Below are positions 2,468-13,999 of a stretch of DNA of 24,656 nucleotides, in pieces. The DNA is taken from the IMG/VR virus record IMGVR_UViG_3300032069_000204, positions 1-24,656 of that record; one strand, 5' to 3'. Numbering within the stretch: the stretch's first letter is position 1; every line of letters begins with the position of its first letter. Below the pieces are notes generated by a model that saw nothing but the letters and a program-made list of their open reading frames with translations, searched no databases and was not told the origin of the DNA. A program made the translations under genes and the position numbers. This DNA is from a virus.

Positions 2468-2718
2468 TTTTTCACCTCATGTTCTAAATCAAATAACCAT
2501 TTTTCAAAAGATGTATTAAAACTGATTATATCAAAAATTCGTAACGCTGTGCCAAATTTTTTCTCCTTTAAAAGTTTTATTGCTAACTCAGGATTGAACT
2601 TATTGCAAAGATACCGCCCCTTTTCCAAGCACTCCACCTGCTCGTACATATTGTTTAACAACTGCTCGAACTTTTTCTTCAACTCTTGGTACGTGGAATC
2701 TTGTTTGACATTTTTCAT
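2464..2718 (-). CDS. small coiled-coil-like protein, unknown function
   Basis: 84 residues, starting at ATG 2718 with AAGG seven bases upstream. The first 40 residues (YQELKKKFEQLLNNMYEQVE) are predicted helical and heptad-like. The first 119 bases overlap the 3' end of ninG in another frame, an unusually long overlap in this otherwise tightly packed operon. The stop overlaps the next start as ATGA. No family recognised. In the overlap this frame looks more natural for the local AT-rich codon use than the ninG frame does, so the end of ninG may be recently extended, or the two genes may once have been separate. Confidence 0.6.
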   Translation of the reverse strand: MKNVKQDSTYQELKKKFEQLLNNMYEQVECLEKGRYLCNKFNPELAIKLLKEKKFGTALRIFDIISFNTSFEKWLFDLEHEVKK

Positions 2719-3130
2719 AATATACCTTAATAAGTGTTTCTAATTCAAAATTATATATTTTAGATTTATTTTGGCTTTTGATTTTAAGCTTTTGTAAAAT
2801 ATTATTTCCATATTTTATTTGCAAATTTTCTGCGAACCTTTCGTAATATCCTGATAAAAAGATATTACACCTCTCACATTGAACCTGACAATTTTCCTCG
2901 TCCCATTTTGTGCCATAATTGTTAGAACGTTCATAATGTCCACAATCCATTTCCTCCCAATAATCAATTTGTCCACACGTGAAACATTTAACAAGCCCTT
3001 GCTCGTCAGCATAACGACTTCGAATCCAAATAGAGAACATATCAATTAATATTTTCTTTAATTGAGGACGTGTAATGAATAAAGCCTTTGCTTTTGTTCT
3101 GTGCTTGATTTTTTTTCTCTTTTGATACAT
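2600..3130 (-). CDS. ninG: NinG/Rap-type recombination protein (zinc-finger nuclease-like)
   Basis: 176 residues from ATG 3130, chosen because AAGGG stands five bases upstream; an in-frame start at 3157 lacks such a site. The basic N-terminus (KRKKIKHRTKAKA) is followed by the NinG core: a CFTCG pair (C49, C52), MDCGHY (about 61-66), WDEENCQVQCERCN (about 76-89, with C85 and C88) and LSGYYERF. Lambda NinG (Rap) has the same order of CxxC, GHY, QC-xx-C-N and SG. Known for the family: Holliday-junction or D-loop endonuclease in Red-type recombination, which fits the YqaJ exonuclease and RecT-like gene upstream in the same operon. The last about 35 residues overlap the next gene and do not look like the usual NinG tail. 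A 103-nt structured element and two pentamer arrays lie in its leader. Confidence 0.85.
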   Translation of the reverse strand: MYQKRKKIKHRTKAKALFITRPQLKKILIDMFSIWIRSRYADEQGLVKCFTCGQIDYWEEMDCGHYERSNNYGTKWDEENCQVQCERCNIFLSGYYERFAENLQIKYGNNILQKLKIKSQNKSKIYNFELETLIKVYYEKCQTRFHVPRVEEKVRAVVKQYVRAGGVLGKGAVSLQ

Positions 3131-3191
3131 AACTACCCTTGTTAAATAAAAACTCAAATTTGTTTAGTTCTGTCGTGTTAATACTCAAATT

Positions 3192-3294
3192 AAAACCGCC
3201 CTGTAATGCCGAAGCATTATCACCGCACCAATTGAACACCTTGTAGGATATTAAGTTCAATCTTAGTTACTCAGTCTCAGTTTAGGGCGGCTTT
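3192..3294 (-). ncRNA. candidate structured RNA, three-way junction with UUCG tetraloop
   Basis: On the minus strand an 11-bp closing helix is formed by 3294-3284 (AAAGCCGCCCT) with 3202-3192 (AGGGCGGTTTT). It contains one G-U pair that becomes an A-C mismatch on the plus strand, so the RNA is more likely minus-strand. Inside are an 8-bp helix, 3262-3255 (GATTGAAC) with 3237-3230 (GTTCAATT), whose 17-nt loop can form a small CCU/AGG stem, and a 6-bp helix, 3219-3214 with 3209-3204, capped by the cUUCGg tetraloop. The single-stranded joints hold a tandem CTGAG motif. It lies between pentamer array A and the ninG start, 62 bases upstream of that ATG. It matches no riboswitch or ribozyme consensus I can recall. 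It could be a cis leader of ninG or a processed RNA. Confidence 0.55.
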
Positions 3295-3330
3295 TTTCAT
3301 TCTTACTTTATTAATTCATTAATTTAAAAA

Positions 3331-3410
3331 ACCGTGCCTTACCTTGCCTTGCCTTACCCAGCTATACCCCACCGAACCATATCTCACCCAACCTCACCAT
3401 ACCAAACCTC
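3331..3410. repeat. pentamer array A, 16 x ACCNN (minus: NNGGT)
   Basis: Sixteen consecutive 5-base units with no insertion or deletion, mostly ACC plus two variable bases (a few units begin GCC or have one change). The array starts at the shared boundary, an A-run then ACCGT, preceded by the AT-rich flank TTATTAATTC. Read on the minus strand it is a GGT-every-five-bases tract ending in GG then TTTTTT. It lies directly upstream (minus strand) of the structured RNA before ninG. Confidence 0.9.
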
Positions 3411-3461
3411 ATTTTCAATATTTTCAAATTTCATTTTTTACTTTATTAATTCAATTAAAAA

Positions 3462-3546
3462 ACCGTACCTTACCTCACCTTACTCTACCATACCAGACCC
3501 TACCACACCAGACCACACCTAACCACACCATACCACACCAGACCAT
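3462..3546. repeat. pentamer array B, 17 x ACCNN (minus: NNGGT)
   Basis: Seventeen in-register pentamers, nearly all ACCNN, beginning ACCGT ACCTT after the same A-run and TTATTAATTC flank as array A. It starts just past the stop codon of the 186-residue RAMP-like gene. The 51 bases between arrays B and A (3411-3461) are AT-rich and hold only the shared flank and no gene. Confidence 0.9.
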
Positions 3547-3549
3547 AAT

Positions 3550-4110
3550 TTAATTAATAATTTCTTTCCAATTTATTACTTGAAATTTTCCGAATTTACC
3601 TTTTTTAATCGGTCTCCAATCTCCTATGCCAACTATTCGACCAGCTATATCGAAAAGTTCTTTCATTACAACCGGCTCGATTTGTTCTTCATCAAAAATC
3701 ACATTGAATCCTGCTTCCCAATCTCTTAGCATCGGTCTATGCAATAAAACCCGTCCTTTTGTAGATGGGTTGACAGCTAACACGCTGAAAACTTCCCATT
3801 TTTGTTTCTTATGTACAATTTCAAAAGGTTCAATTGAAACAGCATAACCACAAGCTTTAGAATAATTAGCTCGACTGCTCCCTTTGCCTAACATTTTCTT
3901 TTGCGTTCCTGCGTTTACAAGAGCCGCTTCCAAATGAGTAGAGGGAATATATAATTCCCCGTTAATTTCATATAATTTCTCTTCTGCCAACTCTTTGGGA
4001 GTTTTTGTTTCCCTTTTAACTGGCCCACCAATCGGAATGCCAATACTCACTGAGGGCTTATTCATCAATAATGGAGAAGTCCCCTGAATTGTTACCGCAT
4101 ATTTTTTCAT
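3550..4110 (-). CDS. conserved phage protein with RAMP-like glycine-rich C-terminus
   Basis: 186 residues from ATG 4110, with AAGGTGAGG ahead of it. From memory it matches a phage and prophage family that begins with a strand and TSPLLMN (residues 11-17), then a KTPKELAEEKLY block (36-47), LYIPSTHLEAALVNAG (53-68), RVLLHRPMLRDWEAGF (120-135) and ends GIGDWRPIKKGKFGKF (161-176). The last block resembles the glycine-rich loop of RAMP/Cas7-type RNA-recognition folds (inference; function of the family is not known to me). The YIP...ALVNAG block also resembles the layout of those proteins. It lies in the recombination operon and is bracketed by pentamer arrays C upstream and B and A downstream, so nucleic-acid binding is a reasonable guess. 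No catalytic residues are obvious. Confidence 0.75.
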   Translation of the reverse strand: MKKYAVTIQGTSPLLMNKPSVSIGIPIGGPVKRETKTPKELAEEKLYEINGELYIPSTHLEAALVNAGTQKKMLGKGSSRANYSKACGYAVSIEPFEIVHKKQKWEVFSVLAVNPSTKGRVLLHRPMLRDWEAGFNVIFDEEQIEPVVMKELFDIAGRIVGIGDWRPIKKGKFGKFQVINWKEIIN

Positions 4111-4152
4111 TGCCTCACCTTATTAAATATTATTAATTCGTTAATTAAAAAA

Positions 4153-4252
4153 ACCGTACCTTACCTCACCGAACCTAACCTTACCAAACCATACCTGACA
4201 CGACCACACCTGACCTCACTGCACCGTACTAAACCAAACCTCACCTTACCTC
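4153..4252. repeat. pentamer array C, 20 x ACCNN (minus: NNGGT)
   Basis: Twenty consecutive in-register pentamers, ACCNN with three or four single-base departures, again opened by an A-run, ACCGT ACCTT and the flank TATTAATTC. It fills the gap between the 93-residue gene and the leader of the RAMP-like gene. On the minus strand the G pairs at 5-base spacing (GGTNNGGTNNGG) would allow two-tier G-quadruplexes in RNA or single-stranded DNA. Confidence 0.9.
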
Positions 4253-4275
4253 CTTTCATTATTTATTCAATATTT

Positions 4276-8741: not shown

Positions 8742-8951
8742 TTAAGCCTTTCCCCAACTCAAGTGTTCATCCCGATATTTCTGAAATTTCAGCTCTTCGT
8801 AATAACCTTCAGCGTTTACTTTTTCATCCAATTCGTCTTCGTATTCGTCTTCGACTTCGTTTCTAAGCTCGTCTTCAATTTCCCTCAATTCCGCAAGGTT
8901 CTGCTCAGGGTCGAGGCAGTCGCCGAGTAATTCAAATAAATCGTCTTTCAT
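8742..8951 (-). CDS. highly acidic small protein, unknown function
   Basis: 69 residues from ATG 8951, behind an AGAGAAACAAA leader typical of this island. By my count 25 residues are Asp or Glu and about 8 are Lys or Arg, with an acidic run around residues 24-43 (EIEDELRNEVEDEYEDELDE). The DNA is visibly richer in G and C than its neighbours and partly repetitive in that run. It overlaps the preceding gene by four bases (ATGA). Acidic small phage proteins can be DNA mimics, but that is only one possibility; an ordinary helical scaffold is equally likely. It is the last gene before the promoter at 8694-8725. Confidence 0.6.
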   Translation of the reverse strand: MKDDLFELLGDCLDPEQNLAELREIEDELRNEVEDEYEDELDEKVNAEGYYEELKFQKYRDEHLSWGKA

Positions 8952-9259
8952 TTTGTTTCTCTTTTTATATAAAAATCTATATTAGAATTTTCTTTACGTT
9001 CTTTAGCAGTTATATTATTCAAATTACCTATTAACCTTGTACAACTTCCATTTAGTCCTGTACAGTCACCATACAGACCAGAACAATTTCCAAATAATTC
9101 GGAACAGTCGCCATACAAACCATTACAATTACCTTTCAGTCCTGTACAGTCGCCATACAATCCAGAATAGTCGCCATACAATCCTTTGCCTGCACCTACT
9201 TTTCGGATGCTATTTTCAAAATGAAATAATTGATTCTTAATTCTTATTAATGTTTTCAT
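8948..9259 (-). CDS. heptapeptide-repeat (GLYGDCT) protein, copy 1
   Basis: 103 residues from ATG 9259, with AAAAGGAGAAATAAA directly upstream; the reading frame is open further upstream but that part overlies two other genes. After MKTLIRIKNQLFHFENSIRKVGAGK come eight 7-residue units of the form GLYGDC(S/T) (units vary: GLKGNCN, ELFGNCS, GLNGSCT, RLIGNLN), then NNITAKERKENSNIDFYIKRETK. Cysteine occurs in six units at the same place. Such G-hydrophobic-x-G-x-C/V-x repeats are expected to form a narrow beta-solenoid (inference). A near-identical paralogue with six units lies 325 bases upstream (9584-9865). Coupled to the next gene by ATGA. Function unknown. Confidence 0.75.
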   Translation of the reverse strand: MKTLIRIKNQLFHFENSIRKVGAGKGLYGDYSGLYGDCTGLKGNCNGLYGDCSELFGNCSGLYGDCTGLNGSCTRLIGNLNNITAKERKENSNIDFYIKRETK

Positions 9260-9408
9260 TTTATTTCTCCTTTTGTTTGGTTTGATAATATAACAGATAT
9301 GCCTAATAGAATAAATGAAGTTTGGAATTCTTGTTGCCAAAAATATACCATTGAAGCAATAAATAATATTATTGCTAATAACATTGTTAAAATAATCTGT
9401 ATTTTCAT
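9256..9408 (-). CDS. 50-residue two-helix membrane protein
   Basis: A short gene at ATG 9408 with AAAAGGAGAAACAAA upstream; its TGA overlaps the next ATG (ATGA). The protein MKIQIILTMLLAIILFIASM... has two hydrophobic helices (about residues 4-23 and 31-42) separated by YFWQQEFQTS, then a polar NQTKGEIK tail. The shape would suit a small holin or other membrane peptide, but no family is recognised and it lies far from the transglycosylase. Confidence 0.62.
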   Translation of the reverse strand: MKIQIILTMLLAIILFIASMVYFWQQEFQTSFILLGISVILSNQTKGEIK

Positions 9409-9422
9409 TTTGTTTCTCCTTT

Positions 9423-9587
9423 TCAATCATTAAAAATTTCCTCAGACCATAAATTATTTTTTGTTTCATCAAGTCCTCTTCTATCAGTTTCAACTTTTGC
9501 AAATTGTCGGATTTCTTCAATAGTATCTCCTTCAACTATTATATAATCCTCATAATCTTCAATTGTCCAATGAATTAAGAATTTCAT
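9423..9587 (-). CDS. 54-residue acidic protein, unknown
   Basis: Starts at ATG 9587 behind AAAAGGAGAAACAAA and stops with TGA at 9423-9425. The start overlaps the stop of the second heptapeptide-repeat gene as ATGA. The protein begins MKFLIHWTIEDYEDYIIVEG, a likely beta-strand pair, followed by TIEEIRQFAKVETDRRGLDE, a helix. This looks like a small, compact, soluble domain. No family recognised. Confidence 0.62.
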   Translation of the reverse strand: MKFLIHWTIEDYEDYIIVEGDTIEEIRQFAKVETDRRGLDETKNNLWSEEIFND

Positions 9588-9865
9588 TTTGTTTCTCCTT
9601 TTATATAAAAATCTATATAAGAATTTTCTTTGCGTTCTTTAGCAGTTATATTATTCAAATTGCCTATTAACCTTGTACAACTTCCATTTAGTCCTGTACA
9701 ACCACCTGTCAGTCCTGAACAATCACCATATAGTCCTGTACAGTCGCCATACAATCCAGAACAGTCGCCATACAATCCTTTGCCTGCACCTACTTTTCGG
9801 ATGCTATTTTCATAATGGAATAATTGATTCTTAGTTTTTGTTAATGTTTTTGTTAATGTTTTCAT
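9584..9865 (-). CDS. heptapeptide-repeat (GLYGDCS) protein, copy 2
   Basis: 93 residues from ATG 9865 with AAAGGAGAAACAAG upstream. Same plan as the copy at 8948-9259: a basic N-terminus (MKTLTKTLTKTKNQLFHYEN, containing a small KTLT duplication), SIRKVGAGK, then six GLYGDC(S/T)-type units (GLYGDCS, GLYGDCT, GLYGDCS, GLTGGCT, GLNGSCT, RLIGNLN) and the shared C-terminus NNITAKERKENSYIDFYIK. The flanks are nearly identical between copies while the repeat number differs by two, showing tandem gene duplication with repeat expansion or contraction. Predicted beta-solenoid; function unknown. Confidence 0.75.
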   Translation of the reverse strand: MKTLTKTLTKTKNQLFHYENSIRKVGAGKGLYGDCSGLYGDCTGLYGDCSGLTGGCTGLNGSCTRLIGNLNNITAKERKENSYIDFYIKGETK

Positions 9866-10082: not shown

Positions 10083-10114
10083 AAAATAATTTGTCAAATA
10101 TATGAAATTATTTT
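10083..10114 (+). repeat. left-end hairpin of the tnpB element
   Basis: Perfect inverted repeat AAAATAATTT (10083-10092) and AAATTATTTT (10105-10114) with a 12-base loop, at the subterminal place where IS200/IS605 elements carry the left-end recognition hairpin. It overlaps the promoter-like boxes that would drive tnpB. Confidence 0.7.
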
Positions 10115-10123
10115 GTATATTTG
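10090..10123 (+). promoter_or_regulatory. promoter-like boxes of tnpB, possibly leaderless
   Basis: TTTG at 10090-10093, a 22-base spacer, and TATATTTG at 10116-10123, an exact TAnnTTTG match. The tnpB ATG follows only four bases later (10128), so transcription would start at or just inside the start codon, giving a leaderless or nearly leaderless message. Confidence 0.5.
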
Positions 10124-10127
10124 CATT

Positions 10128-11243
10128 ATGAAATTGATATTGCAAATAAAACTTCTCCCAATACAGGAGCAATTCGCTTCCCTTAAAAATACTTTGATAG
10201 AGGCGAATACCGCCTGCAATGAAATCTCTAACATTGCTTGGAGCAAAAAACTTTTTAATCAGTTCAAGTTGCACCACGAATGCTATTATAGAATAAAAAA
10301 CAATTTTAACCTTTCGGCTCAAATGGTTGTCCGTTGTATTTCTAAAGTTGCGGATTCTTATAAGATTGATAAAAAGGTTAAAAGAGAATTTCGTCCACTT
10401 GGTGCAATTACTTATGATGCTCGTATTTTGTCCTATGTGAAAGAGGGAATTTCCATGTGGACTGTTGGAGGTCGTCTGAAGATTCCATTTGTTTGCCATA
10501 ACCAAAAATACATTCCTTATATAAAAGGCGAAGCGGATTTGGTATTTAAGAAAGAAAAATTTTACATTTTCCAGACCGTTGAAGTTCCCGAAGAAGATAT
10601 GAAAGATATTGAGGAGTTTATCGGAGTGGATTTTGGTTTGGTTTCGATTGCAACCCTTAGTAATGGTAAAGAATTTAACTCTAAAAAACTTCAAGATTAT
10701 CGAGAAAAAAGACAAAAAGTAAGAAGCTCCGTTCAAAGCAAACGCACAAGAGGAAGTAAAAAACTCTTGAAAAGGCTTAGTGGCAGAGAACGTACCACAA
10801 CTTCTATTATTAACCACACTATTGCCAAGCAAATTGTTCAAATTGCTAAAGAAGAAAACAAAGGGATTGCTATTGAAGAACTTAAAGGCATCCGCTTTTC
10901 TTCTTTGAAAAAAGGAAAGAAGTTTAGAACAAGAGTTGGCAAGTGGTCCTTCAATCAATTGCGTCAATACATTTCCTATAAAGCTATTCTTAATGGTGTT
11001 CAGGTTGTTTTGGTTAATCCAAGATATACAAGCAAGACTTGCAGTAACTGCCATCATATAGGCAATAGGAAAGGAAAGGTATTTGTTTGCAATAACTGCG
11101 GAAACAATATGGATGCTGACTTTAACGCCAGCCGAAATATTGCTATGCTTGGGGCTTCCGTAAATAAGCCCGAAAAGTCGGATATGTATAGCTGTACTTT
11201 GCATTATTCAGATTTAAAGTCCTTCTGCTTTAGCAGTGGGTAA
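10128..11243 (+). CDS. tnpB: TnpB (IS605 OrfB) RNA-guided nuclease
   Basis: 371 residues from ATG 10128; a TTG at 10113 is in frame but inside the promoter box. The RuvC-like triad is complete: IGVDFG with D168, IAIEELKG with E250, and DADFNASRNI with D329/D331. The zinc ribbon lies between the last two (C305, C308, C321, C324). The basic stretch KRQKVRSSVQSKRTRGSKKLLKRLSGRERTT (194-225) is typical of the nucleic-acid binding region between the first two motifs. Length and order fit intact TnpB. Known role: nuclease guided by an omega RNA from the right end, which keeps the element at its donor site. It is the only plus-strand gene here, against a fully minus-strand phage, and its base composition is somewhat less AT-rich than the neighbouring genes. 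Confidence 0.93.
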   Translation: MKLILQIKLLPIQEQFASLKNTLIEANTACNEISNIAWSKKLFNQFKLHHECYYRIKNNFNLSAQMVVRCISKVADSYKIDKKVKREFRPLGAITYDARILSYVKEGISMWTVGGRLKIPFVCHNQKYIPYIKGEADLVFKKEKFYIFQTVEVPEEDMKDIEEFIGVDFGLVSIATLSNGKEFNSKKLQDYREKRQKVRSSVQSKRTRGSKKLLKRLSGRERTTTSIINHTIAKQIVQIAKEENKGIAIEELKGIRFSSLKKGKKFRTRVGKWSFNQLRQYISYKAILNGVQVVLVNPRYTSKTCSNCHHIGNRKGKVFVCNNCGNNMDADFNASRNIAMLGASVNKPEKSDMYSCTLHYSDLKSFCFSSG

Positions 11244-11582: not shown

Positions 11583-11828
11583 TTAGCCATAGCCATTTCC
11601 ATAATCAAAGCCAGAGCCAGAACCATAGCCAGAACCATTGCCCTCACCATTGCCCTCACCATTGCCATTGCCATAGCCATAACCAAAACCATAGCCATAG
11701 CCATTGCCCTCACCATTGCCAGAACCAGAGTTATAGCAAAAGCCAGAGCCATTGCCCTCACCATTGCCATTGCCATAGCCAGAGCCATTGCCATCGCCAA
11801 AACCATAGCATCTGCTTATTGTTTCCAT
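11583..11828 (-). CDS. Gly-X dipeptide-repeat protein
   Basis: 81 residues from ATG 11828 (AAAGG about nine bases upstream); the frame is open further upstream but overlies another gene. After METISRCY the protein is a run of Gly-X pairs with X being Asn, Tyr, Ser, Glu, Asp or Phe (for example GYGFGYGYGNGNGEGNGEGN), interrupted once by FCYNS and once by FD. The DNA is a 6-bp-phased minisatellite with repeated ATTGCCCTCACC blocks on the plus strand, so unit number is likely to vary. Its start lies inside the end of the preceding gene (13-base overlap). Low-complexity Gly-rich proteins of this kind occur in gut-type phages; function unknown. Confidence 0.6.
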   Translation of the reverse strand: METISRCYGFGDGNGSGYGNGNGEGNGSGFCYNSGSGNGEGNGYGYGFGYGYGNGNGEGNGEGNGSGYGSGSGFDYGNGYG

Positions 11829-13149: not shown

Positions 13150-13172
13150 CGTTTCCGTGCTGAGTTATTCGT
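13150..13172. repeat. 23-base repeat, copy 2 (T-arm absent)
   Basis: Matches 13983-14005 except for one base. On the minus strand it reads ACGAATAACTCAGCACGG followed by AAACG. Here it covers the last codons and stop of the 90-residue gene and the first bases after it, and it leads into AT-rich sequence rather than into the T-arm-like hairpin of the other copy. Confidence 0.7.
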
Positions 13173-13908: not shown

Positions 13909-13956
13909 AACATTACTCCTTTGTTTAAAATTGTTTAAAAAAGACACCTACTATTG

Positions 13957-13999
13957 AACTCAGGGCGGGAATCGAACCCGCCCGTTTCCATGCTGAGTT
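13957..13999 (-). other. tRNA T-arm mimic closed by an acceptor-like stem
   Basis: On the minus strand AACTCAG (13999-13993), a 9-base joint, GGGCGGG (13983-13977), loop TTCGATT (13976-13970), CCCGCCC (13969-13963), then CTGAGTT (13963-13957, sharing one base). The inner hairpin is a textbook tRNA T-arm: 7-nt TTCGATT loop (T54 T55 C56 G57 A58) closed by G53-C61. The outer 6-7 bp stem sits where an acceptor stem would be, but D and anticodon arms and CCA are missing. It lies between the 107-residue gene and an NPYF gene. It may be a stable minihelix RNA, a tRNA remnant or an attachment core; none is proved. Confidence 0.55.

Follow-up and report, generated by a model that had tools for sequence, protein, structure and literature searches.

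The stretch of DNA analyzed here (the window) comprises 24,656 bases of IMG/VR virus record IMGVR_UViG_3300032069_000204 and has a G+C content of 31%. All the genes that could be named, with the exception of TnpB, lie on the minus strand, and encode a DnaB-like helicase, a replication initiator, RecE-like and RecT-like proteins, NinG and a tape-measure-like protein. Protein matches to phage records were all below 60% identity, thus the collections searched contain no annotated close relative of this phage; single-query searches with either NinG or the 186-aa protein encoded next to it also retrieved no close relatives.

Several other features of the window are worth describing. The TnpB-like frame (10113-11243, plus strand), of the IS200/IS605 type, opposes the direction of the surrounding genes; its best match (72%) belongs to a 4-kb contig from an unclassified MAG, and a host assignment on this basis was discarded. 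Two paralogous small proteins (8948-9535 and 9584-9865, minus strand) carry repeats such as GLYGDCTGLYGDCS and are duplicated ~636 bp apart, while a repeat with a 6-nt period (11584-11809, minus strand) encodes a Gly-rich stretch (GNG, GSG, GYG) and constitutes the strongest folding region on that strand. A tRNA T-arm-like hairpin, GGGCGGGTTCGATTCCCGCCC, enclosed by AACTCAG...CTGAGTT (13950-13998, minus strand), also ranks among the window's most significant folds; it aligns with the 3' end of the tmRNA model (E=0.003) and may be the core of an attachment site or a tRNA-like minihelix. The 5' motif of this hairpin, ACTCAGCAYGGAAACG, recurs after another gene (13150-13165), where the T-arm is lacking.

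The intergenic element upstream of ninG

The element under study sits in a 390-nt gap bordered by two genes of the same strand (Table 1). The identity of NinG is supported by PF05766 (E=4e-12) and by phrog_5034 (E=6.5e-22), in agreement with a previous sequence-only reading that placed the element upstream of ninG and on its coding strand. The same reading described three nested helices, and both their coordinates and their lengths were confirmed: P1 has 11 bp (element positions 1-11/93-103, one G-U pair), P2 has 8 bp (33-40/58-65) and P3 has 6 bp (76-81/86-91), the latter capped by a cUUCGg loop. The element was also said to be much richer in G+C than its flanks, which holds for the ninG side (42.7% vs 27.2%) and hardly for the other one, occupied by a pentamer array (39.8%). 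A coding role was rejected, as a 72-aa frame (3042-3260, minus strand) has no PHROG match and overlaps ninG out of frame.

Table 1. Coordinates (window numbering) of the element, its parts and the two bordering genes.
Feature	Position	Strand	Remarks
ninG	2600..3157	-	start ATG at 3130 or TTG at 3157; downstream of the element
186-aa gene, phrog_4652 (function unknown)	3550..4110	-	upstream of the element
Whole element, terminator-like inverted repeat with 81-nt loop	3192..3294	-	103 nt
P1 5' arm AAAGCCGCCCT	3284..3294	-	preceded by further A: AATGAAAAAAGCC
P1 3' arm AGGGCGGTTTT	3192..3202	-	continues into AATTT
P2 5' arm GATTGAAC	3255..3262	-	pair probabilities 0.56-0.99
P2 3' arm GTTCAATT	3230..3237	-	predicted pairing
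P3 hairpin TAATGC-TTCG-GCATTA	3204..3219	-	pair probabilities 0.84-0.97; one base ahead of P1 3' arm
Remainder of A-tract (minus) / T-tract (plus, GGGCGGCTTTTTTC), outside P1	3295..3299		from the sequence

Taken as inverted repeats, the P1 arms are identical at 10 of 11 positions and flank a segment of 81 bp. P1 includes six consecutive G-C pairs, where a canonical intrinsic terminator calls for a G+C-rich stem of 4 bp or more, and the probability of its inner pairs is 0.86-1.0 when the element is folded in isolation. A U-tract, also characteristic of terminators, directly follows the stem on both strands (GGGCGG-UUUUAAUUU on the minus strand and GGGCGGC-UUUUUUC on the plus strand). The A-tract ahead of P1 and the T-tract behind it, absent from the sequence-only reading, point to a terminator-like signal.

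In the direction of transcription, the element comes after three leader copies with degenerate (GGTNN)n pentamer arrays (minus strand), whose cores span 3329-3358, 3485-3544 and 4151-4195, and whose extents are about 3334-3411, 3465-3547 and 4145-4255. Each array ends in a similar leader (ACGGTTTTTT...GAATTAATAA) ahead of an ATG. One copy continues into the beginning of the 186-aa gene, and the copy adjacent to the element runs into ATGAAAAAAGCCGCCC, so that the 5' arm of P1 occupies the place where the start of a gene body would be expected; the pattern of this leader junction had only four matches in IMG/VR, all unrelated. The 5-nt period and conserved GG of the arrays recall the spacing of TRAP-type RNA binding. 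The array can pair with the 5' arm of P1, and the probability of P1 drops to 0.46-0.67 when the upstream array is included in the fold; attenuation by this pairing was nevertheless rejected, since 28% of shuffled leaders lowered the probability of P1 equally.

Fold strength and homologue searches

The folding energy of the element is -29.8 kcal/mol for the minus strand and -24.5 kcal/mol for the plus strand (a shuffle run using the DNA alphabet gave -28.9 instead of -29.8 kcal/mol for the minus strand, leaving the picture unchanged). The corresponding z-scores, -2.48 and -2.29, are nearly alike, thus the difference in energy follows base composition; the better folding previously attributed to the minus strand stands as far as energy is concerned but not by z-score. 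Of 2000 shuffles, 2.8% were as stable as the whole element, on either strand. Ranked among 984 windows per strand, the minus strand of the element took 10th place by energy but only 72nd by z, and the plus strand 11th and 45th, respectively; the element is no outstanding fold for its window. Moreover, the 81 nt inside P1 fold at -13.0 kcal/mol versus a shuffle mean of -13.07 kcal/mol, with 47% of the shuffles as stable. Since the interior folds like shuffled sequence, the claim that the three-way junction is an evolved RNA unit finds no support; in the comparison with shuffled sequence that had been proposed along with this claim, the whole element did only modestly better and the interior no better.

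A different picture was obtained for the inverted repeat. We looked for inverted repeats whose arms have 7 bp or more, six or more of them G-C pairs, lie no more than 150 nt apart, and are bordered by A-rich sequence on the left and T-rich sequence on the right; such a repeat occurs once in the window and appeared in 3 of 1000 shuffled windows (0.3%, a somewhat generous figure, given that these criteria were chosen after the element was seen). The repeat, the tracts and their rarity against chance are direct observations. Likewise, the window contains a single cUUCGg hairpin with a stem of 6 bp or more, as do 0.75% of shuffles, P3 being the only hairpin with this loop and a stem of at least 4 bp, whereas stems of 6 bp or more capped by a UNCG or GNRA loop of any kind are expected by chance, arising in 70% of shuffles. 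The signal above chance consists of P1 with its flanking A- and T-tracts, plus the cUUCGg hairpin.

The Rfam covariance models gave no match at the gathering score, the best sub-threshold matches being to eukaryotic or irrelevant families, which agrees with the earlier statement that it fits no familiar riboswitch or ribozyme consensus. In IMG/VR, an exact 32-mer from the 5' half of the element had no match, and a gapped pattern of its 3' half had four, which on inspection were G+C-rich sequences unlike the element. Searches by blastn found nothing similar in phage records or plasmids, and a sample of the phylum of the MAG holding the best TnpB match yielded only short fragments, up to 24 bases among the best. 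A single-sequence covariance model compared with 90 sources returned a next best hit of E=0.31 with a poor alignment, none being credible, and its comparison with 192 genomes, run without a positive control, produced no homologue. A search for homologues with compensatory base changes had been set beforehand, together with the sequence-only reading, as a refuting test; its outcome of zero homologues in these collections is absence of evidence, and does not disprove function.

We also compared 82 ninG loci, 80 of them distant ones from IMG/VR (recovered by distant NinG alignment) and two from phage records. In most of them the preceding ORF abuts ninG, and in none (0/82) do the 500 nt ahead of the gene contain a similar repeat; the element is no general companion of ninG.

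Possible roles of the element

We tentatively favor reading the element as an ordinary hairpin of terminator-like or attenuating type whose loop is oversized, and which would mark the boundary between an upstream unit, formed by the 186-aa gene and the leaders with pentamer arrays, and the ninG group. Judged by its sequence, the anatomy of P1 looks like the signature of a bidirectional intrinsic terminator, though not one to be filed as canonical. Bidirectional terminators feature an A-tract upstream of the hairpin, and canonical ones have loops of 3-13 nt (median 4 nt) and stem-loops of at most 59 nt (PMC12207403). With a loop of 81 nt and a total of 103 nt the element breaks these limits, and a terminator scan with loops of 3-8 found nothing at this position; thus the element probably works in a terminator-like manner without the canonical label.

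According to this model, a polymerase coming from the right would transcribe the 5' strand of P1, the AU-rich loop with P2 and P3, and then the 3' strand of P1, which would pair while the U-tract is being synthesized, so that a fraction of the transcripts would end there. P2 and P3 might reduce the effective size of the loop, and the mirrored A- and T-tracts could let the element act on plus-strand transcription too. Both termination itself and its strength are inferred. Against the model, the tail on the minus strand is only UUUUAAUUU, and P1 becomes less probable (0.46-0.67) in folds that take in the upstream array. A sigma-70-like promoter that could restart transcription was not detected between 3100 and 3320, and a scan for Bacteroidetes-type promoters gave a single match, extending into the ninG start codon; as no promoter for ninG was found, partial termination (attenuation) seems likelier than a full stop. 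Besides, the surrounding genes are all on the minus strand, and therefore a terminator for the plus strand would have no obvious customer.

An orphan structured RNA is possible, if unproven: a cis-regulatory leader of ninG whose three-way junction binds a protein or a ligand, or else a discrete small RNA with paired ends. The rare cUUCGg hairpin within the only inverted repeat of the window with A- and T-tracts speaks for it, as does the good prediction of P2 and P3 when the element is folded alone; however, with an interior at shuffle level, a rank of 72nd among the 984 windows by z, neither a homologue nor an Rfam family, and nothing of this structure ahead of the 82 other ninG genes, we consider it unlikely. 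We find it similarly improbable that the inverted repeat and the short helices are a functionless, chance alignment in an intergenic stretch. The fold of the whole element reaches just the 2.8% level and was picked from a window of 24.6 kb, and hairpins with UNCG or GNRA loops are common among shuffles, but P1 with both tracts has a frequency of 0.3% at the scale of the whole window, and this repeat encloses the rare cUUCGg hairpin.

Rather doubtful is an inverted repeat acting at the DNA level, that is, the trace of a small mobile element or a segment capable of inversion, in either case without a function as RNA. The nearly identical arms around the 81-bp segment would fit, and the element adjoins duplicated leader/array units, so this intergenic region has visibly been rearranged. 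Nevertheless, there is a single copy in the window, where a miniature inverted-repeat element would be expected in several, no exact 32-base match in IMG/VR and none in plasmids, on which grounds the ends of a mobile element or IS were discarded; in addition, neither a clear target-site duplication nor attC core sites were found, and no invertase was recognized among the proteins searched. Finally, a phage leader RNA in which the three-way junction closes onto the U-tract, its aptamer-like domain making a ligand- or protein-responsive terminator of the ninG operon, appears very improbable.

If the element does terminate transcription, it would exemplify bidirectional terminators whose loop is unusually large and branched, of a kind that escapes standard finders by design (their loop limits being 8-13 nt), and would set the boundary of ninG in an orphan phage lineage. 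Otherwise, it would illustrate that, when a tidy fold is drawn by eye, both the whole and its interior need to be tested against shuffles.

Comparison with known systems

As an imperfect inverted repeat of ~100 bp that can be folded as a single strand, the element resembles integron attC sites, a candidate that was rejected because neither the RYYYAAC nor the GTTRRRY core site is present on either strand. Riboswitch and leader platforms with a terminator-like closing helix share with it a closing helix beside a U-tract, inner arms and a position ahead of a gene; they differ in that the element has no Rfam match, homologues, interior above shuffle level, or demonstrated ligand or alternative fold. 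With respect to bidirectional intrinsic (Rho-independent) terminators, the element departs in its loop, of 81 nt with two inner hairpins versus ~4 nt, and in its total length, of 103 nt versus a limit of 59 nt, whereas it shares with them the G+C-rich stem, the T-tract directly 3' and the A-tract directly 5' of it, and the intergenic location.
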